Source of the DNA: Ornithinimicrobium pekingense DSM 21552 | Lineage (GTDB): Bacteria; Actinomycetota; Actinomycetes; Actinomycetales; Dermatophilaceae | DNA: 64,000 nt | Assembly (NCBI RefSeq): GCF_000421185.1 | Contig: NZ_ATWJ01000015.1 | Span: forward strand, 1 to 64,000 | Direction of reading: 5' to 3' | Shown here: positions 25,830-52,657 of the stretch, piece after piece | Layout of the letters: every line of letters begins with the position of its first letter | Position numbering within the stretch: position 1 is the first letter of the stretch | Translations under genes and position numbers: made by a program | Notes under the pieces: generated by a model | Told to the model about the DNA's origin: nothing | The model's input: the letters and a program-made list of their open reading frames with translations, nothing else | Database searches by the model: none

Positions 25830-26255
25830 TCAGTCCTCCAGCGCGTTGACCATCGCCTGGGCGGCGCGGTTCATGTAGTCGCGCATGAGGTGCTCGTCCA
25901 TCGGCCCGAGCTGGTCACGGATGCTGTCGATGGCGGCGTGCATGTGCTGCAGCCAACGGTCGCGCTGGGCCGGGGTGACCTTGAAGGGGACGTGGCGCAT
26001 CCGCAGGCGCGGATGGCCGCGCGTCTCCTGGTAGGTGGTCGGGCCGCCCCAGTACTGCTCGAGGAAGAGCAGCAGCCGTTCCTCGGCCGGCCCGAGGTCC
26101 TCCTCGGGGTAGAGGTCGCGCAGCGGCGGGTCGTCGGAAACGCCCCGGTAGAACTCGGCGACGAGCCGGCGGAAGGTCTCGTGGCCACCGACACGCTCGT
26201 AGAAGGTCGGCACCGGGGAGACCGGCGGGGACACGGTGTGGTCGGGCTGGGTCAC
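25830..26255 (-). CDS. glbO: Group II truncated hemoglobin (trHbO)
   Basis: A 141-residue 2-on-2 globin. Typical features: FYERVGGHETFRRLVAEFYR (A-B helices with the B10 region), LLLFLEQYWGGP, the proximal-His segment RMRHVPFKVTP and the conserved Trp G8 in QRDRWLQHM. It binds heme and handles oxygen, NO or peroxide redox chemistry. It starts 12 nt after the stop of the large ectodomain protein and may share its transcript. Confidence 0.93.
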   Translation of the reverse strand: MTQPDHTVSPPVSPVPTFYERVGGHETFRRLVAEFYRGVSDDPPLRDLYPEEDLGPAEERLLLFLEQYWGGPTTYQETRGHPRLRMRHVPFKVTPAQRDRWLQHMHAAIDSIRDQLGPMDEHLMRDYMNRAAQAMVNALED

Positions 26256-26267
26256 CGCCCCAGTGTC

Positions 26268-28895
26268 TCAGGTGCTCCCCGGCGCTCCGTCCTCACCGCC
26301 ACGCACGCGGACCTCGACGGCGAAGCCCTCCTCGTAGCCCTCCACGACCAGCTCGAACGGCTGCCCGGGGACGCCGGCGGTGCGCGTGCCCTCGACCCGC
26401 AGGTCGGTGACGACCGGCGCGGCGGTCCACGAGCTCCACCAGCCGTCGGGCAGCCACACCGCCGGGCGCCCGCCCTCCAGCACGCGGACCCTGCCCCGTC
26501 CCTCGGTCGACAGGCGCAGCCACGTGCGGCTGCTCAGGTCCTCCTCGATCCGCAGCCGTCCCTCGTCGTCGAGGTCCTCGGCCGTCCAGCGGCCCACGAC
26601 CACGGTGCTGCCGCCGGCCGCGGCCAGGGGGTCGGGAAGCGGCTCCCCGGGAGCGGCGAAGACGCCCATGGGCGGTGCGGCCGCGAAGTCGAAGTCCTCG
26701 TGGGCCACGGGCTCGTAGGCCAGCAGGGTGCTGGGGGGCGTCGGGCCGGGCGCCGCGGGGACCGTCACCGCCACGACTCCCGTGCCGGTGCCCGCGCGGA
26801 TGTTGCGGGTGCTGGCACCGGCGCGCAGCAGCTGCTCGCCCGGGCGCCAGACACCCTCGTCGAAGGCGTCGGGCACGGAACGGACCATCGACAGCTCCGC
26901 CGCACCGCGCGTCGTGGCGACGTGCGGTGCGACCGCGCCCCACCCCTCCGGTGCGGGTCGCGCGGGGGAGCCCACGAGGATGAAGCGCCGGCCGGGCCGC
27001 AGGCCCGGGTCGGCCAGCGCGTGCGGGACGCCGTCGTTGGGCACCTGCCACGCCGTAGCGAGCCGGTGACCACCCACCCACTCCGGGACGTCGCGGTCCG
27101 GCGGCGCGTCGGTGACCGGCAGCGGGAGGGTGTCCTCCTGCACGAGGCTCGCCCCGCTGACCTGCACCTGCCACGACCGGGCTGCCAGGGTGGTCGACAC
27201 CGTGACGGTGGCCACGCGGGACTGCCCGGCAGCGGGCCGCAGGCGGTCGGGCAGGAGGAGCTCACGGGCCCGGCCCGGCCGGTAGACGAGCCAGCGGCCG
27301 TCGCGCAGCTCGGGGTCGGCCGTGCGCCAGGCGTCCGGCGGCGGGGGGTCCTGCGGGGCAGCACCGTCGGGTATGCCGTCACCCCCGGAGTCCTCGTGCT
27401 CGCAGGCACCGTCGAGGGGGACCACGGCGGCCTCGCCGTCGTCGGTGACGACGGTGTCGTCGACCTGCACGGTGATCCCGCCGGCCGCCCCGGCCCAGAC
27501 GGTGAGGGTCGTGTCCGGACCGACCCGGACGCGGCGGTGGTGGACCGTCCGGCTCTGCACCTGGTAGGCGGGGCTGGTGCCGTCGAGCACCAGGGTGCCC
27601 GCCCCGACCACCGGACGGGCCGGCCGTGCCACGTCGACGGGGGTGGGGCCGGCACCCACCTCGGTGTAGGTCGCCAACAGCGCCCGCCCGCGCGTCGGCA
27701 CGTCACCGGACCAGGCCACCAGCACGGTCGACAGCCCGCGGCCGGTGCCGGGGGGAAGGGGCACGAGCCGCTCCACCGCCGGCTCCCCGCCCGTGCCGGC
27801 GCAGGCCAGCACGGCCGACTCGCCGCCGGTCATCAGCCGTGCCGCCGGGGGGTGCAGACGGGGGTCGTCCACCGGTAGGTCGCACCACAGGGCCGCGAAC
27901 ACGGCCTCCCCCGAGCGTGGCCGGGTGTCGACCCGCAGCGGGGCGGTGGCCTGGGCGAGGTTGACCGGGACGACCTGCAGCAGGCGCAGCCCCTCCAGGT
28001 CGACCGGCGGGGCGCCGTCGGGGCCCAGGGCCCAGCCACGCTCCGCGAGGTCACCCCCTGCCGTGGGCAACGAGGTGCCGTCGACCAGCGCCAGCCTCCG
28101 GCCCCCCGCGTCCGCGTCGGCGGCGGGCAGATCGGGGACGGGGTCGCCCAGCGCGGAGGCCCACACCACCAGACCCAGCGCCACCGCGCCCGCGAGCACC
28201 CGCCACGTCCACGGCCGGTGGGCCAGGCGGGCGGCCTCGGTGCGCGCCCGGGCCAGGGGGGCGGGTGGTCCGGCGGCAGGCGTGCCTCCGTCGCGCAGGG
28301 GGTCCGGCCCAGGGCCGGGGGAGGGCGAGGTGAGCTCGGTCAGGACGGTGGTGACGACCTCGTCGGCGGGGCGGGAGTGCCGGTCGGCCAGGGCCGCCAG
28401 GGCGGCCTCGAGGCCGGACGACCGCGGCACCATCCGGGCGACCACGGTGCGGTCGACGTGCAGCGCGTCCGCGACCCTGCTGGCGGGCCAGCCCTCGGCG
28501 CGTCTGAGCACGGTGGCCGCCCGGGCCCTGGGGCGCAGGCTCGCCAGGACGTCCCCGGCGTCCGGGTCGGTCAGCCCCGCGACCGCCTCGAGCTCGGGTC
28601 GGCGCCAGGAGGGTGCACGGTGCAGGTAGGCGCGGGTGAGCAGCTGCACGAGCTGGGCGCGGTCCGCAGAGGCCGGGGCGGAGCGCAGGACCTCGACGAC
28701 GAGGCGGTCGGCCGCGGCCTCCTGGCCGGTGAGCATGAGGGCGGTGCGGCGCAGGGCCGGCGCATGGCGACGCACCGCCTCCGGCAGGCCCGGGGCAGGG
28801 CCGCTGGGCTGGAGCCCGACCACCTCCCCAGTCTGCCAGCGCGGCAGAGCCCGGGCGAGGGTCTCGCCGAGCACCCCTCCCGGACGACTGCGCAC
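26268..28895 (-). CDS. Sigma-like/transmembrane/giant ectodomain fusion protein, paralogue 1
   Basis: An 875-residue protein of unknown function. Residues about 35-170 resemble a degenerate SigE-family sigma factor (HAPALRRTALMLTGQEAAAD aligns with the region-2 start of the sigma at 33.2-33.7 kb; DVLASLRPRARAATVLRRAE aligns with its region-4 start). A Pro/Gly linker, one membrane helix (about 231-249, WRVLAGAVALGLVVWASALG) and a predicted extracellular part of about 620 residues follow. This shares motif series with its two upstream paralogues: FAALWCDLP, VQVDDTVVTDDG, ADPELRDGRWLV, GHRLATAWQVP, HEDFDF, STEGRGRVRVLEGG and DGWWSSWTA. The GTG start is uncertain; AGGAGG sits 13 nt upstream inside a small hairpin. 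Confidence 0.75.
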   Translation of the reverse strand: MRSRPGGVLGETLARALPRWQTGEVVGLQPSGPAPGLPEAVRRHAPALRRTALMLTGQEAAADRLVVEVLRSAPASADRAQLVQLLTRAYLHRAPSWRRPELEAVAGLTDPDAGDVLASLRPRARAATVLRRAEGWPASRVADALHVDRTVVARMVPRSSGLEAALAALADRHSRPADEVVTTVLTELTSPSPGPGPDPLRDGGTPAAGPPAPLARARTEAARLAHRPWTWRVLAGAVALGLVVWASALGDPVPDLPAADADAGGRRLALVDGTSLPTAGGDLAERGWALGPDGAPPVDLEGLRLLQVVPVNLAQATAPLRVDTRPRSGEAVFAALWCDLPVDDPRLHPPAARLMTGGESAVLACAGTGGEPAVERLVPLPPGTGRGLSTVLVAWSGDVPTRGRALLATYTEVGAGPTPVDVARPARPVVGAGTLVLDGTSPAYQVQSRTVHHRRVRVGPDTTLTVWAGAAGGITVQVDDTVVTDDGEAAVVPLDGACEHEDSGGDGIPDGAAPQDPPPPDAWRTADPELRDGRWLVYRPGRARELLLPDRLRPAAGQSRVATVTVSTTLAARSWQVQVSGASLVQEDTLPLPVTDAPPDRDVPEWVGGHRLATAWQVPNDGVPHALADPGLRPGRRFILVGSPARPAPEGWGAVAPHVATTRGAAELSMVRSVPDAFDEGVWRPGEQLLRAGASTRNIRAGTGTGVVAVTVPAAPGPTPPSTLLAYEPVAHEDFDFAAAPPMGVFAAPGEPLPDPLAAAGGSTVVVGRWTAEDLDDEGRLRIEEDLSSRTWLRLSTEGRGRVRVLEGGRPAVWLPDGWWSSWTAAPVVTDLRVEGTRTAGVPGQPFELVVEGYEEGFAVEVRVRGGEDGAPGST

Positions 28896-28945
28896 GCCGG
28901 GAGGAACGCCTCCTCGGTCGGCGGCGGGCTCAGCGGCTCACCGGG

Positions 28946-31318
28946 TCACTGCGTCAGCAGCTCGACCGTGAGGTCCTCGTAGCCCTCGACCTCGAGCGTG
29001 ATGTCGATCTCCGGGCGGGTGTAGCCGCCCGAGTAGGACAGCTCCAGCTCGGACGTCACCGCCTCGGCCGTCCAGCTGGACCACCACCCCTCGGAGCCGT
29101 AGAGGGCGTCGGCCGGCTGGCCCTCCACGAGGAAGCGGACGCGTCCCTTGCCCTCGCTGGTCACCCGGGCGGCGACGGCCACCCCGTGCGTCACCGGCAC
29201 GGTCACGTGCCCGTCCTCGAGGTCGTCCAGGTCGACGACCGCCTGGACCTGCCACCCCAGCAGGTCCGGCCATCGACTGTGCGGGTCCAGCTCCGGCTCG
29301 GCGCCGGCCGGCCGGGCCCCGGGCGGGATCCCGGCCGTCGCGAAGTCGAACTCCTCGTAGGGGACCGGGGCGTAGGCGAGCACGGTGGCGGGAGGGTGCC
29401 CGGGGGAGGCTGGGGCGGCGACCGTGAGGGGGCCCGGCCCCGTCACCGGCTCGAACCAGGGATGCCGCAGCTCACGCACCGCGGCTTCCACGCCGTCCTG
29501 GAGCCACAGCGTCACCGGACGCTCACCCAGGCTGGCCAGCCCCTCGCCCCAGCCGTACCACCGGTGGGGGTCCACCTCGCGCGTGACCATCACCACGAGC
29601 TCCTCGGCGACCAGGGGGTCGTCGGGCAGGAGCTCGTGCACCTGCCCGTCGGAGGGCACCTGCCACTGCCCGACCAGCCGATGCCCGAGGGCGTGCCGCG
29701 GCGCGCTCGGCTCGGCGACGGCGGCCACCGGCCCCGTGTCGAGCTCCCCGGCGGCGGCCCCGCTGAGGGCGACCTGCCACAGGTCCCCGATGTTCTCGGT
29801 GACGACCTCCACGGCGACGGTGCGGCGCTCGCCAGGAGCCGGACGCACCTGCTGCGGCAGCTCGAAGGTGCGCACCTGGCCGGGCGCGGGCACCAGCCAG
29901 CGGCCGTCCCTCAGGTCGGGCTGCTGGGTGGTCCAGCTGCCGTAGTCACGCGGGTCGGTCAGGACCGGCTCCGACCCCTCGAGCTGAGCGGCGGACAGGT
30001 CCTCGATCATCGCGGTCATCGAGGCGACGTCACCGTCGTCGGTCACCGGCACCCCGTCGACCAGGACCGACAGGGCGCCCGTGCGTCCCGCCCAGACCCG
30101 GACCGTGCTGTCGTGCCCGACGACGGTGGCCTGGGCCAGCCGGCGGCCGCCGAAGGCGGAGGGGTGGCTCTGCGAGACGTCCAGGACGTGGCTGCCCGCG
30201 TCCACCGGCGGGGGGTCGGCCTGGCTCCCGCGGGCGGCCGGTGCCTGGCCGTGGTCGGACTCGGCGTAGACACCGAGCACCGCGCCGCCCCTGCCGGGGA
30301 TGTCCCCGTCGAGCCGCAGCACGCCCACCCCGTCCAGCGGCAGGGCGACGACCTGGGTGACGGGGGGTGACCCCTCACGTCCGGCGCACGGCAGGTCCAC
30401 CTCGGCGTCGCCGAGCGAGATGGTCCCGGAGGGCACGCGCAGGTGGGCGTCCTGCGCCGGCGGCATGTCGCACCAGAGCACCCCGAACGAGGCGAAGCCC
30501 AGCCCCGAGGAGGAGGGCAGGTCGACCGTCGCCGACCGCCGCCCGTCGTCGAGGACGACGGTCTCCCGCAGGTGCAGCCCCATCGGGGAGCGTGGGGGTG
30601 CACCCTCGTCGTCCAGGCGCCAGCCCGCCTCGGTGAGGTCGGTCCCGGCACGGACCGTCCCGGCTCCGTCGACCCCGGCCGCGTCCGCAGGGGAGCCGCC
30701 GTCGGGCCGGTCCGTCACGGCATACCCCCCGAGCACCGCGACCGCGACGCCGGCGGCGACCGCCCAGGTCCGCAGGCGGCCTCCCGACGGGGCGGTCCTG
30801 GTCAGCTCGTCGGCGAGCCGCCCGTCCAGCGCGGTCTCCAGGTCCGCACCGGTGAGCGCGTGCTGGTCGGCCAGCCCGGCCAGGGCCAGCTCGAGACCGG
30901 GGACCCGGGGGACCAGCCCGCTGACCCGGCGGACGGGGACGCCTACGGCGGCGGCGGTCCGCTCCTCGTCCCATCCCTCCAGCAGCCGCAGGGCGGTGGC
31001 CGCCCGGTCCCTGGGCCGCAGGCTCGCCAGGACGTCGCCGGCGTCGCCGCCGGTCACGCGCACGCCGTCCGTGCGCCTGGGTGCGGAGCGCAGGTAGAGA
31101 CGGACGAGGGTGCGGCGCAGCCGGTCCTCCGTCGCGCTCCTCGGGTCCGCGGTGCCCACGGCGCCACCACGGGCCCCCTCGACCGCCAGGGTGCGCGCCA
31201 CCAGCCCGGTGGCCTGCTCCGTGTCGGCCGTCAGCACGGCGGCGAGGCGGTGCAGCCCGGCGCCGTGGGCAGGCACGAGCGCGGACGCGCTCGCCCCTGC
31301 CCCCGACGTCGTCGTCAT
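28946..31318 (-). CDS. Sigma-like/transmembrane/giant ectodomain fusion protein, paralogue 2
   Basis: A 790-residue protein of unknown function. Residues 15-175 resemble an ECF sigma factor in order: HGAGLHRLAAVLTADTEQAT (region-2-like), RLRRTLVRLYLRSAPRR, then DVLASLRPRDRAATALRLLE and ERTAAAVGVPVRRVSGLVPR (region-4 helix-turn-helix position). One membrane helix is near 183-201 (RTWAVAAGVAVAVLGGYAVT). The 585-residue ectodomain carries GWRLDDEGAPP, VLWCDMPP, VLVDGVPVTDDGDV, QPDLRDGRWLV, GHRLVGQWQVPSDG, PYEEFDF, TSEGKGRVRFLVEG and EGWWSSWTAE, and ends EVEGYEDLTVELLTQ. ATG 31318 is 22 nt after the upstream gene; the longer frame lacks a start signal. Confidence 0.77.
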   Translation of the reverse strand: MTTTSGAGASASALVPAHGAGLHRLAAVLTADTEQATGLVARTLAVEGARGGAVGTADPRSATEDRLRRTLVRLYLRSAPRRTDGVRVTGGDAGDVLASLRPRDRAATALRLLEGWDEERTAAAVGVPVRRVSGLVPRVPGLELALAGLADQHALTGADLETALDGRLADELTRTAPSGGRLRTWAVAAGVAVAVLGGYAVTDRPDGGSPADAAGVDGAGTVRAGTDLTEAGWRLDDEGAPPRSPMGLHLRETVVLDDGRRSATVDLPSSSGLGFASFGVLWCDMPPAQDAHLRVPSGTISLGDAEVDLPCAGREGSPPVTQVVALPLDGVGVLRLDGDIPGRGGAVLGVYAESDHGQAPAARGSQADPPPVDAGSHVLDVSQSHPSAFGGRRLAQATVVGHDSTVRVWAGRTGALSVLVDGVPVTDDGDVASMTAMIEDLSAAQLEGSEPVLTDPRDYGSWTTQQPDLRDGRWLVPAPGQVRTFELPQQVRPAPGERRTVAVEVVTENIGDLWQVALSGAAAGELDTGPVAAVAEPSAPRHALGHRLVGQWQVPSDGQVHELLPDDPLVAEELVVMVTREVDPHRWYGWGEGLASLGERPVTLWLQDGVEAAVRELRHPWFEPVTGPGPLTVAAPASPGHPPATVLAYAPVPYEEFDFATAGIPPGARPAGAEPELDPHSRWPDLLGWQVQAVVDLDDLEDGHVTVPVTHGVAVAARVTSEGKGRVRFLVEGQPADALYGSEGWWSSWTAEAVTSELELSYSGGYTRPEIDITLEVEGYEDLTVELLTQ

Positions 31319-31340
31319 ACGGCCATCGTGCCACCGGGAC

Positions 31341-33233
31341 TCACTCCGGGACCACCACCAGCACCTCGGCCTCCACGGCGCCACCGGGGTAGCCGTCGAC
31401 CTCGAGCGTCAGCTCACCGCCGTCGGAGGGGGCCTGCACCCAGGCCACCGGCACGGAGGTGACCCGGTCGTCGGTCCAGGAGGTCCACCAGCCGTCCTGG
31501 TCGACGCCCCACCCCTCGGCGGGGGAGCCGTCCACCAGCAGGCGGACCCGTCCGACGCCCTCGGTCGTCAGCCGGACCCCGACCGTGTCCGGAGGCAGCG
31601 TCACCTCGGTCACGGTGCCGTCGGTCAGCCCCGCCGGGTCGAGCCGGTGGCCGACCGTGACCTCGCCGCGCACGGCAGCCAGAGGGTCCCAGCCCTGGGG
31701 CGCCTCGGCGGCCGCCTCGAAGTCGAACTCCTCGAAGGGGACGGGCACGTAGGCGGCGACGAGCGCGATGCCCCCCTCCGGGTCGGCCGGAACCGCGACC
31801 CGCACCTCGGAGCCCGGGGTGACGACCGTGCCGTCGTAGCCCGCCGCCTCGGCCACGGGGTAGAGGGCCTCCTGGGTCCGCGCGGAGCAGACCCGCTCGA
31901 GGGTCTCCTCGTCCACCGTGACCCGCCCGGTCGCGACCACCCCGCCGTCCCGCGCGACGCCGGGGCACCGCAGGGCCCAGGTGGCCTCCGCACCGTCCTG
32001 CCCCAGCTCGTCGGGGAGCTCGAGCCGGTTGGCGACGCCGGTGCGGGGGACCTGCCACGTCGCCACGAGACGGTGCCCGGCATACCACTGCGGCATCTCG
32101 GAAGTGGCGCCCGTCGAGGGGGCGGTGGGCGCCACGGCAGCGGGCTCGGACCCGGTGGCCAGGACGGCGACCTGCCAGTGCTGCTCACCGGCGCGGGGGA
32201 CGACCGTGACGGTCACGGTGCGGGTCTCGCCCGGCCCGGGCAGCACCTCCTCCGGCAGGGCGAGCGTGCGCCGCTGGCCGGCGGTGAAGGCGTCCCAGAC
32301 GCCGTCCCGCAGCTCGGGGTCGGCCTCCTGCCAGGCGTCGCCGCCCACGGCGCCGCTGTCACCGTCGTCGGTCACCCGCACCCCGTCGACGTCGACCTGC
32401 AGGCCCCCGGGCACGCCGCGCCACAGCTCCAGCGAGCTGTCGCTGGTCAGCGTCACCGTGGCCGCGCGGGCACCACCGTGGACGGTCCCGTCGCCGGCGG
32501 CGCTGCCCGGGTCGAGCACCACCGCGTCCGGGCCGTGGGCAGGCGGCGTCAGCGGGGGGTCGGGCCACCCCGGGAAGTCGTACTCCGCGGAGGAGGCCTC
32601 GCGGTAGATCCCGAGCACGGCCTCGCCGTCACCGGGCACGTCGCCCCGCCACGTCGGCGCGAGGGTCACCTCGCCCGGAGGGAGCGGCACGGGTGTGACC
32701 GTGACCTGGGACGGGTCGTCCTCGGGCAGGCAGGGCACCTCGACCGTCGGCCCGGCAGGGGTCCGCAGCCGCAGGGAGGGCGGTGTGATGGCGGAGTCGT
32801 CTGGCCCGACCTCGCACCAGAGCACGGCGAAACGCTGGGAGCCGTCGGACGTCGCGCCGCCCGGCCCCGGCAGGGTCAGGTCGTCGGCGCCGCCGTAGGG
32901 CACCGGGACCGTCTCCAGCAGCAGCAGTCCGTCCGCCTGCTCCGGCGGCGTGCCGTCGTCCAGCACCCACCCCCGCTCCACGGCCGAGCCGGTGCCCTCC
33001 GCGGGCGGCGCCGGCGTGGGGTCGTCACCGGTGAGCAGCTGCATACCTGCCGCCCCGACGACCACGGCGGCCGCGGCGGCCACGGCGCCGCGCGACGCCC
33101 CGGCCTGACGGCGGCGGGACCGCTCCTCGCGCAGGTCGCGCAGCAGGTCGGTCGGTGACGGCGCCGGGTGGCTGTCGGCCGTCTCGTGCAGCGTGCGGCG
33201 CAGGTCCTCGACGGTGCGGGTCGTGGGTGTCAT
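31341..33233 (-). CDS. Putative membrane anti-sigma factor with giant ectodomain
   Basis: A 630-residue single-pass protein coupled to the sigma gene by an ATGA overlap. The cytosolic N-terminus of about 45 residues (VEDLRRTLHETADSHPAP, then DLLRDLREERSRRRQAG) looks like the short sigma-binding tails encoded after SigE-family sigma genes. A membrane helix at about 48-65 (GAVAAAAAVVVGAAGMQLL) is followed by about 565 extracellular residues with the motif series of the two paralogues: RGWVLDDGTPPEQADGL, FAVLWCEVG, VDVDGVRVTDDGD, ADPELRDGVWDA, GHRLVATWQVP, PFEEFDF, TTEGVGRVRLLVDG and DGWWTSWTDD. By position it should restrain the sigma factor and sense an outside signal. Inference only. Confidence 0.78.
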   Translation of the reverse strand: MTPTTRTVEDLRRTLHETADSHPAPSPTDLLRDLREERSRRRQAGASRGAVAAAAAVVVGAAGMQLLTGDDPTPAPPAEGTGSAVERGWVLDDGTPPEQADGLLLLETVPVPYGGADDLTLPGPGGATSDGSQRFAVLWCEVGPDDSAITPPSLRLRTPAGPTVEVPCLPEDDPSQVTVTPVPLPPGEVTLAPTWRGDVPGDGEAVLGIYREASSAEYDFPGWPDPPLTPPAHGPDAVVLDPGSAAGDGTVHGGARAATVTLTSDSSLELWRGVPGGLQVDVDGVRVTDDGDSGAVGGDAWQEADPELRDGVWDAFTAGQRRTLALPEEVLPGPGETRTVTVTVVPRAGEQHWQVAVLATGSEPAAVAPTAPSTGATSEMPQWYAGHRLVATWQVPRTGVANRLELPDELGQDGAEATWALRCPGVARDGGVVATGRVTVDEETLERVCSARTQEALYPVAEAAGYDGTVVTPGSEVRVAVPADPEGGIALVAAYVPVPFEEFDFEAAAEAPQGWDPLAAVRGEVTVGHRLDPAGLTDGTVTEVTLPPDTVGVRLTTEGVGRVRLLVDGSPAEGWGVDQDGWWTSWTDDRVTSVPVAWVQAPSDGGELTLEVDGYPGGAVEAEVLVVVPE

Positions 33234-33742
33234 GCCAGGCGCCCCTTTCCCCCGGCGACGACGTCGTCGAGGTGCTCGCTCACGCGGAGCGCGGCCAGCG
33301 CCCGCGAGTGGTGGGACTTCACGGTGCCGACGGCCAGGCCCAGCGTGCGGGCGGTGTCGGCCTCGGTGAGGTCGTGGAAGTAGCGCAGCACCACGACGGC
33401 GCGCTGCTGCGGCGGGAGTGCACGGACGGCGTCGGCGAGGGTCAGGCTCGTCTCGAGGTCGGCTCCCTGGCGGGTGTCCGCCTGCTCGGGCAGCTCCTCC
33501 GTGGGCCGCTCGCCGTGCCACCGGCGCCGGCGCTGCGTCAGGAACTCGCGCACGACGATCGTCCTGACGTAGGCCACCCTGTCGCCGGTCACCCTGCCCC
33601 AGGAGCGCCACGCCTTGAGCAGGGCCTCCTGCAGCAGGTCGCGTGCCGTGTGCGGGTCACCCGTGAGCAGCACCGCGGTGCGGTGCAGCGTGGGCGTGCT
33701 GGCGAGGACGAACTCCTCGAACGCCGGTCCCTGACCTCTCAT
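33230..33742 (-). CDS. SigE-family ECF RNA polymerase sigma factor
   Basis: A 170-residue sigma factor of the actinobacterial SigE family. Region 2 spans about residues 8-75 (FEEFVLASTPTLHRTAVLLT, DLLQEALLKAWRSWGRV, YVRTIVVREFLTQRRRRW). Region 4 spans about 105-155 (AVRALPPQQRAVVVLRYFHD, then TEADTARTLGLAVGTVKSHH). It should direct transcription in response to an extracellular cue relayed by the coupled membrane protein. TAGGAGG lies 6 nt before ATG 33742. A candidate ECF-type promoter (33763-33790) suggests autoregulation. All genes down to glbO could belong to its transcript. Confidence 0.92.
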   Translation of the reverse strand: MRGQGPAFEEFVLASTPTLHRTAVLLTGDPHTARDLLQEALLKAWRSWGRVTGDRVAYVRTIVVREFLTQRRRRWHGERPTEELPEQADTRQGADLETSLTLADAVRALPPQQRAVVVLRYFHDLTEADTARTLGLAVGTVKSHHSRALAALRVSEHLDDVVAGGKGRLA

Positions 33743-33762: not shown

Positions 33763-33790
33763 GACGACCCGGGGCGGACGGACGGTTGTC
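33763..33790 (-). promoter_or_regulatory. Candidate ECF-type promoter of sigma gene
   Basis: On the minus strand GACAACC (33784-33790) is followed by 17 nt and CGTC (33763-33766). AACC and CGTC with 16-17 nt between is the usual form of ECF sigma target promoters. The ribosome site AGGAGG (33749-33754) and ATG follow at once. Confidence 0.45.
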
Positions 33791-33811
33791 ACGGCCCGGC
33801 AGGTCGTGGGC

Positions 33812-40407: not shown

Positions 40408-40498
40408 GCAGGGCTCTCCTCGGGAGGTGAGGTCGGTCGGACGGGACCCGGCGCGGGTATGGGGTGGGCCGGGTCGGCCCCTGCCCGCCGCCGGGTGA

Positions 40499-40504
40499 CA
40501 CGAT
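40499..40504 (+). promoter_or_regulatory. -10 box, leaderless promoter
   Basis: CACGAT ends 6 nt before ATG 40511, the same hexamer and spacing as in the MFS promoter at 21386. Confidence 0.45.
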
Positions 40505-40510
40505 GGTGCC

Positions 40511-41152
40511 ATGACACAGACCACGGCACCTAGCCGCGACCGCGCCGAGATGTTCTTCGACCCCGTGTGCCCCTGGGCCTGGATGACCTCCCGCTGGATG
40601 ATGCAGGTGGAGCAGGTCCGCGACCTCGACGTCACGTGGTCGGTCATGAGCCTGTCGGTCCTCAACGAGCACCGCCACCTCGACGAGGGTTACCGCGAGA
40701 TGCTCGACCGCTCCTGGGGCCCCGTGCGTGTCATCGTCGCGGCCACCCAGGGCCTGGCCGAGGACGAGGCCAACCTCCTGCGCAAGCGGATGTACGACGC
40801 GTTCGGCCAGCGGATCCACCTGGACCACCGCGGCACCGAGCACCTGGACCAGATCATCGACGAGGTCGTCGACGAGCTGGGCCTGGACCCCGCCCTGAAG
40901 GAGGTCGCCGGCCGCGACGACGTGGACGAGGCGCTGCGGGCCAGCCACCAGCGGGCGATCGACCTCGTCGGCGACGACGTGGGCACCCCCGTCATCTCGG
41001 TCAACGACGTCGCCTTCTTCGGTCCGGTCGTGACGCCGGCACCCAAGGGCGAGGCCGCCGGGCGGCTGTGGGACGGCTGCGTCCTCGTCGCCGGCACACC
41101 CGGCTTCTACGAGCTGAAGCGCACGCGCGAGGCCCACCCCGACTTCAGCTGA
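40511..41152 (+). CDS. DsbA-fold protein of the Rv2466c (mycothiol-dependent nitroreductase) family
   Basis: A 213-residue thioredoxin/DsbA-fold protein. The active-site region is EMFFDPVCPWAWMTSRWMMQ near residues 13-32; the family motif CPWC appears as CPWA, so only the first cysteine is kept, as in many actinobacterial homologues I remember. Other blocks are DVTWSVMSLSVLNEHRHLDE and GDDVGTPVISVNDVAFFGPV with the cis-proline. Rv2466c uses mycothiol to reduce its substrates; a monothiol mechanism is likely here. 96 bp separate it from rpiB. Confidence 0.87.
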   Translation: MTQTTAPSRDRAEMFFDPVCPWAWMTSRWMMQVEQVRDLDVTWSVMSLSVLNEHRHLDEGYREMLDRSWGPVRVIVAATQGLAEDEANLLRKRMYDAFGQRIHLDHRGTEHLDQIIDEVVDELGLDPALKEVAGRDDVDEALRASHQRAIDLVGDDVGTPVISVNDVAFFGPVVTPAPKGEAAGRLWDGCVLVAGTPGFYELKRTREAHPDFS

Positions 41153-51656: not shown

Positions 51657-52589
51657 TCAGCCTGGCACGGACGAGCGCGCCCGCGTCACGACCGCCGGCC
51701 GGGCCGACCGCTGCTCGTGCAGCGCCAGCGCGGCCACGGTGACCAGGACGACCGCCATCCCGAGCCACTGGGTCGGGCTGGGGCGGACGCCGAAGGCCGC
51801 GACGCCCACCAGGGCCGCCGTGAGCGGGAAGGCCAGCTCGGCCAGGGTGGCGCGGGAGGCGGGGGTCCGGCCGAGCGCCAGGTAGTAGAGGACCATTGCC
51901 GCCAGGCCCGGGAGCAGCGCCAGCGCCGCGATCGACGGCAGCGCCGACGGCGGCACCGCCAGCGGTGTCGAGGTGGACGCGGCGAGGACCGCGAGCGTGA
52001 CCAGCCCGACGGTGAAGCGCAGTGCGACGAGGTCACGGAAGCGCAGCTCGGCGCTCGCGGCCCGTCCCAGCACGGTGCCGGCCGCCCACAGCGACGCCGC
52101 GCCGAGCGCCAGCAGGGCCGCCTGCGCGCCGGCCACCGTCACCCCGAGCGGGTCGGCGAAGGTGAGCAGCCACGCCCCGACGAGGGCGGGCAGCAGGAAC
52201 GCCGCATACCGGGGCCGTAGCCGCTCGCCCAGCAGCACGGCGGCGAGCGCGAGGGCCACCAGGGGCTGGAGCTTCTGCAGGACCTGGGGCGTGATCGGGT
52301 CGCCGAGCCGGAAGGCCGTCGTGAAGAGCACGGTGGCCAGGGCCGAGGAGCCGGCACCGATGACCAGCACGGCGGCCCGGGTGCGCCACGAGGAGACCAG
52401 GAGGCGGCGGACGGCCGGTGCCAGCCAGGGGCTGACCAGCACCACAAGCAGCAGGTGCTCCCAGAAGACGATCGCCAGCGAGGGCAGCTCCCGTGCGAGC
52501 GGGTCGCGCCACAGCGCGGACAGGCCCCAGAACGAGGCCGCCAGGGCGACCATCCACGTGCGGTCCGTCCCGACCCTGGCTGCGCTCAC
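51657..52589 (-). CDS. EamA/DMT-family transporter
   Basis: A 310-residue polytopic protein with about ten helices in two EamA repeats: repeat 1 begins RTWMVALAASFWGLSALWRD and includes ALATVLFTTAFRLGDPITPQ; repeat 2 begins GAQAALLALGAASLWAAGTV and ends WLGMAVVLVTVAALALHEQR. Such proteins export amino acids or metabolites. The GTG start at 52589 is divergent from clpP1. Confidence 0.87.
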   Translation of the reverse strand: MSAARVGTDRTWMVALAASFWGLSALWRDPLARELPSLAIVFWEHLLLVVLVSPWLAPAVRRLLVSSWRTRAAVLVIGAGSSALATVLFTTAFRLGDPITPQVLQKLQPLVALALAAVLLGERLRPRYAAFLLPALVGAWLLTFADPLGVTVAGAQAALLALGAASLWAAGTVLGRAASAELRFRDLVALRFTVGLVTLAVLAASTSTPLAVPPSALPSIAALALLPGLAAMVLYYLALGRTPASRATLAELAFPLTAALVGVAAFGVRPSPTQWLGMAVVLVTVAALALHEQRSARPAVVTRARSSVPG

Positions 52590-52657
52590 GTCGTCAGCCT
52601 CTCACGGGCGAGGGGCCGGGCCTGGCGGGTATGCCGTGCCCGCGCCGCGACCGGCTG

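Follow-up and report, generated by a model that had tools for sequence, protein, structure and literature searches.

How a domain resembling a sigma factor comes to form the inner end of a large membrane receptor, and what it might do there, is the question raised by four minus-strand genes at positions 26268-33742 of a 64,000-nucleotide (nt) stretch of Ornithinimicrobium pekingense DSM 21552 (contig NZ_ATWJ01000015.1, positions 1 to 64,000; hereafter the window). In transcription order, the genes are sigma, A, B and C. The first-pass annotation had described an extracytoplasmic function (ECF) sigma factor and three membrane proteins with giant ectodomains, the first with a short anti-sigma-like tail, that might feed, or compete for, that one sigma factor. 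For B and C, the notion of three anti-sigma receptors is rejected here, as their N-terminal domain is itself sigma-like and of the SigE-family type. The reading put forward, with a probability of roughly 0.4, is that B and C may be membrane-anchored sigma mimics, derived from a sigma/anti-sigma fusion, with anti-sigma tails as their targets in the way that NepR is the target of PhyR. The features concerned are as follows.

33230..33742, minus strand: sigma, an intact SigE-family ECF sigma factor of 170 amino acids (aa) (TIGR02983, E 6.7e-52; Pfam regions 2 and 4)
31341..33233, minus strand: A, an anti-sigma-like single-pass membrane protein of 630 aa (ATGA overlap with sigma)
28946..31318, minus strand: B, pseudo-sigma domain, transmembrane helix and ectodomain, 790 aa (profile matches, alignment, AlphaFold2 model)
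30824..31318, minus strand: pseudo-sigma domain of B, residues 1-165 (TIGR02983, E 8.7e-5; AlphaFold2, Foldseek, residue loss)
30710..30769, minus strand: transmembrane helix of B, about residues 184-203 (hydropathy)
26268..28823, minus strand: C, pseudo-sigma domain, transmembrane helix and ectodomain, 851 aa with the revised start (profiles, alignment, promoter motif)
28296..28823, minus strand: pseudo-sigma domain of C (PhyR-family model NF006623, E 3.1e-6; PF22029 PhyR_sigma2, E 1.4e-3; both under curated cut-offs)

Sequence comparison identifies the inner domains of B and C as degenerate sigma domains, with a predicted fold like that of sigma factors and PhyR. In particular, the SigE-family match covers roughly residues 6-131 in B and, in the 875-aa numbering, 32-156 in C, and the helical domain of B extends to about residue 175 in the model; the two N-termini align with the window's own sigma at 29% over 144 columns and 32% over 118 columns, respectively, with E about 3e-4. 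All profile scores of the two window proteins fall under curated cut-offs, including 22.5 bits (B) and 16.1 bits (C) against the TIGR02983 cut-off of 141.55. The same model weakly matches all 15 aligned B/C-type proteins (best E 4.5e-6), and the PhyR anti-anti-sigma model NF006623 matches seven of them (best E 3.1e-6). When the family profile is compared with solved structures, PhyR comes first (9cb6, E 2.1e-6) and Mycobacterium tuberculosis SigE second (3.8e-6), with SigL and further PhyR structures behind them. Modelled by AlphaFold2, residues 1-180 of B have a predicted local distance difference test (pLDDT) score of 84.2 and a predicted template modelling score of 0.81, and Foldseek pairs this model with SigG1, PhyR-NepR (4qic, E 0.013) and SigW-RsiW at a probability of 1.00 and E-values of 0.012-0.17.

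Among 31 genomes sampled from the genus, with Serinicoccus and Ornithinimicrobium as its named relatives, B-type proteins occur in 17, with 22 copies in all. Ten SigE-family sigmas were aligned with 17 B-type N-domains, a table that omits five copies (four that are broken and, in genome G013, a second copy that is open). Residues found in at least 9 of the 10 sigmas that appear in none of the 17 B domains include Q38, W45, W48, Y58, W75, Q113, T140, K142 and R153; the region-2.2 glutamine and both tryptophans are thus absent from all 17 copies, with the W48 column being a gap in 14. D35, G139 and S143 persist in 1 of 17, the linker columns P80, T81, E82 and L84 are gaps in all 17, and the recognition helix is followed by an insertion of some six residues. 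Conserved in all 17 are L19, A23, L26, A33, L36, R73, R114 and L119. In ECF sigmas, the lost residues would be expected to contact the polymerase and the promoter.

This loss bears on whether B and C could be membrane-tethered sigmas that remain active after proteolytic release, like ECF52/ECF53 or IutY (ECF243). According to two sources, the sigma domain of ECF48, ECF52, ECF53 and IutY proteins lies N-terminal to a transmembrane segment in one chain, SCO4117 (ECF52) and IutY function as sigma factors, and ECF52 has an outer domain, a zinc finger and a carbohydrate-binding domain (PMC8999054, PMC5826349). B and C share this order of a sigma-like domain, a transmembrane helix and a further part, and fused forms with a nearly intact sigma do exist (locus L105, and L167 in another family). 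However, B and C have degenerated strongly, the model nearest to them is that of the SigE family, they lack intact sigma regions 2 and 4, their bit scores lie far below the cut-off, the recognition helix is variable, and the residues expected for core binding and promoter reading are gone in the 17 copies examined, making a tethered, working sigma improbable.

Across 15 pairs with ectodomain identities above 60%, the ratio of nonsynonymous to synonymous substitution rates (dN/dS) is 0.23-0.58 for the pseudo-sigma domain and 0.28-0.51 for the ectodomain; among the eight whose ectodomain identity reaches at least 70%, the pseudo-sigma range is 0.23-0.43. Over all pairs, the mean identity is 51.5% for the pseudo-sigma domain and 44.8% for the ectodomain. 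These codon comparisons establish that the domain is under purifying selection. Within it, sigma4.1 is the most conserved segment (0.84 bits), while the recognition helix counts as one of its more variable parts (1.57 bits, like the ectodomain mean); the juxtamembrane helix reaches 1.73 bits. Because selection and identity are retained, the recognition helix varies and sigma4.1 is the best kept, the domain seems to be preserved for something other than promoter reading.

The same measurements weigh on three further explanations. First, B and C could be decaying relics of a fused sigma receptor, as five of the 22 copies look broken (the second copies in G001 and G025, and those in G004, G017 and G021), where assembly errors are possible; but 17 copies are open, dN/dS is well below 1, the promoter motifs are conserved and extra copies occupy other loci (L013, L015 and L025), so that decay is very improbable. 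Second, the domain could be a repurposed helix-turn-helix, making B and C ToxR-like one-component membrane transcription factors that work independently of sigma. Weak helix-turn-helix matches (HTH_23 in C at E 1.1e-4; such models in eight of the 15 members at E up to 0.1) and the occurrence of B without sigma and A in 13 of 17 genomes are in keeping with this proposal, whereas a DNA-reading helix that varies more than sigma4.1, with an insertion adjoining it, argues against it; overall, it is rather unlikely. Third, the domain could be a structural anchor only, with the ectodomains of B and C doing the work, perhaps by pairing with A as co-receptors or by buffering ligand. The ectodomain family is common to A, B and C, and the cytosolic domain lacks the function-bearing residues; but that domain is conserved no less than the ectodomain, purifying selection acts on it, and A is absent from most genomes that carry B, which leaves a pure anchor doubtful.

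The sigma-mimic reading takes its model from PhyR of the Alphaproteobacteria, which has been described as having a C-terminal receiver domain and no membrane part (PMC4598750). B resembles the PhyR-NepR-EcfG system in having a sigma-like domain that is apparently not used as a sigma, with both profile and fold similarity. Unlike PhyR, B and C have a transmembrane helix and a large ectodomain; Pfam finds no receiver domain in the window proteins or the 15 members, the remainder of the chain being transmembrane helix and ectodomain, and no zinc-finger anti-sigma domain in the 15 members at E up to 0.1. In the proposed scheme, the fused sigma part would have lost its polymerase and promoter contacts and retained its fold, and the ectodomain of B or C would respond to an envelope or extracellular signal of the class that A's ectodomain senses. 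The signal would expose or hide the pseudo-sigma domain, which would bind anti-sigma tails, A's where present and those of other SigE-type anti-sigmas elsewhere, thereby releasing the true sigma in a transmembrane version of PhyR-type mimicry. We infer the signal, the partner and the direction of the switch.

If the scheme is true, sigma control gains a one-protein switch from outside to inside, with mimicry exerted from the membrane. How a part of this kind could evolve is illustrated by the series, inside a single bacterial family, from a nearly intact fused sigma to a pseudo-sigma. A wider generalization is possible, and offered tentatively: transmembrane sigma mimics may be a new receptor class, in which an ectodomain-controlled pseudo-sigma strips anti-sigmas, and which arose more than once in Actinobacteria when adjacent sigma and anti-sigma genes fused and sigma activity was then lost. 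Literature searches, judged mainly from their listings and with most subscription papers outside their reach, showed sigma-transmembrane fusions and PhyR mimicry and no membrane-anchored pseudo-sigma receptor. Since B and C score far under sigma cut-offs, automatic annotation can overlook pseudo-sigma domains; the empty profile searches with A-type ectodomains are a second reason why it may miss such proteins.

Similar fusions occur in other genera. A family-wide search with the pseudo-sigma profile matched 177 of 186 genomes, mostly at sigma genes, and an order-wide search with the whole B profile covered 396 genomes, with two candidates per genome scored, a design that divergent ectodomains could escape. 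Outside the genus, among the order-wide matches listed, the N-domain part alone was matched; of those read, L043 and L044 are fusions. Reading 19 chosen loci after both searches revealed a sigma-like domain, a transmembrane helix and an outer domain in five more genera of the family.

Genus g121: L101 and L103, two tandem copies each (the second copy of L101 has 286 aa)
Genus g28: L044, L106 and L108
Genus g33: L043
Genus g40: L107
Genus g6: L105

Their TIGR02983 scores form a descending series, from 176-184 bits for free sigmas through 134 (L105), 88 (L043), 73 (L044), 61 (L107) and 41-46 (L101 and L103) to 22 for B and 16 for C. L105 has its SigE domain in frame with a whole A-type protein, and its A-type part aligns with A of L112 at 40% over 367 columns (E 6e-53); in L101, residues 147-465 are the part that aligns with A, here that of L048 (E 3e-9). 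Two other fusion types, searched for across the class in 394 and 296 genomes, returned chiefly sigma-part matches, and of nine long open frames then read, one (L167) is a fusion with an intact-looking sigma. In a sigma/pseudo-sigma tree that includes 12 of the 22 genus B copies, the 12 B domains fall into a single clade (100/98) with g121 as its neighbour (93/96, not starred), and L105 groups with the malQ-locus sigma of g143 (99/96). An approximately unbiased test does not reject a single origin of the tested pseudo-sigmas (p 0.275), nor a grouping of B with the malQ-locus sigmas that has L105 inside (p 0.194; 0.52 with g121 added). An earlier run against the latter grouping (p 0.023) had placed L105, which groups among these sigmas, outside it; descent of the B domain from the local sigma lineage is thus not rejected. 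B and C most likely descend from a SigE-family sigma that became fused to an A-type receptor.

The tandem pseudo-sigma receptors of g121 (L101, L103 and L104) occupy an unrelated locus, with the L104 pieces split over several open frames; the g28 proteins (L044, L106 and L108) are a separate sigma-transmembrane fusion type beside a groEL-like gene, and L106 has a free SigE-family sigma directly downstream.

Several observations weigh against the mimicry reading. Foremost, 13 of the 17 B-bearing genomes lack sigma and A, and in two more (G006 and G013) the pair is broken; the tail of A therefore cannot be the general partner, and another partner of B must exist in those genomes. Binding of B and C to anti-sigma tails is itself a prediction. 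A hidden Markov model of seven A tails, run against 16 B-type proteins, gave unconvincing matches (one at E 0.0082, the next at 0.29), so a retained anti-sigma tail in B is not claimed, although a three-row A profile does run through the tail in some B proteins. The Foldseek E-values are weak (best 0.012, none at or below 0.001), no receiver domain is found, and the PhyR likeness may be convergent loss. In pairs with L026, dN/dS is higher for the domain (0.51-0.58) than for the ectodomain (0.42-0.47). The contig that carries L105 is short and its genome 79% complete, so a sequence error may have joined two genes there, and the tree does not settle which sigma gave rise to the B domain.

By this distribution, B is not simply another receptor for the window sigma, as so many B genomes lack the pair or carry it broken. 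The first-pass annotation had named homologues that mostly occur apart from the sigma gene as evidence against its reading; for B this is what is seen, and its three receptors sharing one sigma are not supported as stated, both on this ground (four of the 17 B genomes have sigma and A, two of them broken-looking) and on the pseudo-sigma inner ends of B and C. The 13 genomes contain 6-13 matches to the window sigma each. A-type proteins are present in nine of the 31 genomes, with sigma adjacent in eight and the contig ending in the other (G023); four genomes carry both A and B, five A only and nine neither. In G006 (L026) there are frameshifts in sigma and A, and in G013 (L014) sigma has a stop and A changes frame, with open B-type genes in both genomes; this breakage is either real decay or sequence error.

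A single locus, with malQ/mscS-like genes on one side and globin/amylase genes on the other, holds 19 of the 22 B copies and those A copies whose flanks could be read; three B copies are elsewhere (L013, L015 and L025). The same surroundings in other genera of the family, as read from sequence, contain sigma and a smaller A-like protein of 351-361 aa (L048 and L112), and L102 has a sigma at the corresponding surroundings with an adjacent A-like match, so the malQ locus probably carries an old sigma/anti-sigma pair. In a 25-row ectodomain tree, A and B are parted by one branch (99/97), which makes B an old paralogue. The B protein of G006 (L026:8893-11229) has a pseudo-sigma domain that groups with G026 (100/99) and an ectodomain that groups with B-only genomes (100/99), a case of domain shuffling that perhaps fitted the inner domain to a partner.

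The sigma and A genes themselves conform to a known arrangement. With 175.6 bits against TIGR02983 (cut-off 141.55) and with the Pfam region 2 and region 4 models both above cut-off, sigma is by its profiles a normal, complete SigE-family ECF sigma, as first annotated. The ATGA overlap with a single-pass protein also stands, with an inner tail of 47 residues, a transmembrane helix at about residues 48-67 and about 562 outer residues (about 565 in the first-pass annotation). A adjoins the sigma gene, has one transmembrane helix and a cytosolic N-terminal tail, and keeps its place beside sigma in relatives.

33093..33233, minus strand: residues 1-47 of A, its cytosolic tail and a candidate segment for binding sigma (conserved pattern, helices from sequence only)

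The pattern DLRxxL...AP.P..LL is conserved in the tails of all seven aligned A-type proteins, and the tail reads as two short helices flanking a proline-rich linker. CnrY has been described as using two helices to clamp its sigma, in an arrangement that superimposes on PhyR-NepR (PMC4598750); the resemblance of the A tail to such short CnrY/NepR-type anti-sigmas is a likeness read from sequence only. Like SigE-family sigmas with membrane anti-sigmas, the window has an intact sigma, an ATGA-overlapping membrane partner and an ECF-type promoter; unlike them, A matches no Pfam or NCBIfam family at E up to 1, and thus no described anti-sigma domain. Among seven A-type members, one has a single weak FG-GAP match (E 0.035). 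The kept gene order, the overlap and the promoter support sigma and A as one unit behind an ECF-type promoter and as an ordinary sigma/anti-sigma pair under membrane control. Its ectodomain is enlarged: in two other genera, the A-like proteins next to sigma (351 and 361 aa; L048 and L112) have one of about half the size.

Promoter motifs, which are presumed to be functional, separate this pair from B and C.

33763..33791, minus strand: ECF-type promoter TGACAACC-N15-GTCGTC upstream of sigma (same motif and spacing in relatives)
31319..31333, minus strand: extended -10 leaderless-type motif of B, TGGCACGATGGCCGT before ATG (17 B upstream regions, window pattern search)
28824..28838, minus strand: extended -10 leaderless-type motif of C, TGGCAGACTGGGGAG before GTG (window pattern search)
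26253-26270, 28821-28838, 31316-31333, 40496-40513 and 52587-52604: window matches to TGNSANNNTG-N5-RTG, all at gene starts

The ECF-type motif stands directly upstream of sigma at six of ten sigma loci examined (five in the genus, one in another genus). The shorter TGACAACC-N14-16-GTCG pattern has one or two matches in each of six genomes with sigma and A, always including their own sigma, and zero or one in each of three B-only genomes; with two mismatches, 40-75 per genome appear among the matches listed. Sigma is probably autoregulated, and the regulon search suggests nothing beyond autoregulation. The full motif is found in none of 18 B/C upstream regions, with L015 alone passing a looser screen. 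Six bases ahead of the start codon, 16 of 17 B upstream regions share an element like an extended -10 (-14 G in 16 of 17, -11 A in 16 of 17, -7 T in 17 of 17). In the window, TGNSANNNTGN5RTG has five matches versus 1.2 expected (1 of 100 shuffles reaches five), at the starts of globin, C, B and two unrelated genes, and it looks like an ordinary leaderless promoter type of this organism. B and C could thus be produced independently of sigma, and with a motif of their own before each, the four genes need not be one operon. The longest open frame of C starts at 28895 (875 aa); as the motif lies directly upstream of 28823, the start is most probably the GTG there (851 aa), and the B-C gap is 122 nt. 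The first-pass annotation had placed two paralogues with A's ectodomain at gaps of 22 and 50 nt; the homology and the 22 nt between A and B hold, while the 50 nt gives way to the revised start.

The ectodomains complete the picture of the receptors.

31344..33029, minus strand: ectodomain of A (34% identity to B, E 4e-50)
28949..30709, minus strand: ectodomain of B, mostly beta-strand in the model (alignment, AlphaFold2 model)

The ectodomain of A is homologous to that of B and, at 34% identity (E 1e-45), to that of C; B and C are similar over their full length (35%, E 2e-83). Profile searches of Pfam, NCBIfam and solved structures linked the ectodomains to no known family. The whole-B AlphaFold2 model has a mean pLDDT of 77.6, and Foldseek gives it three matches at E up to 0.001, none with a good probability or TM-score. 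Compared by hhalign, the two ectodomain halves give no better than E 0.024, and an internal duplication is not claimed. The 351-aa A-like protein of L048 gives weak collinear matches to the second half (E 0.005-0.007), which is suggestive only of a relationship. The neighbouring malQ and amylase genes are alpha-glucan genes, an association given no weight for ectodomain function.

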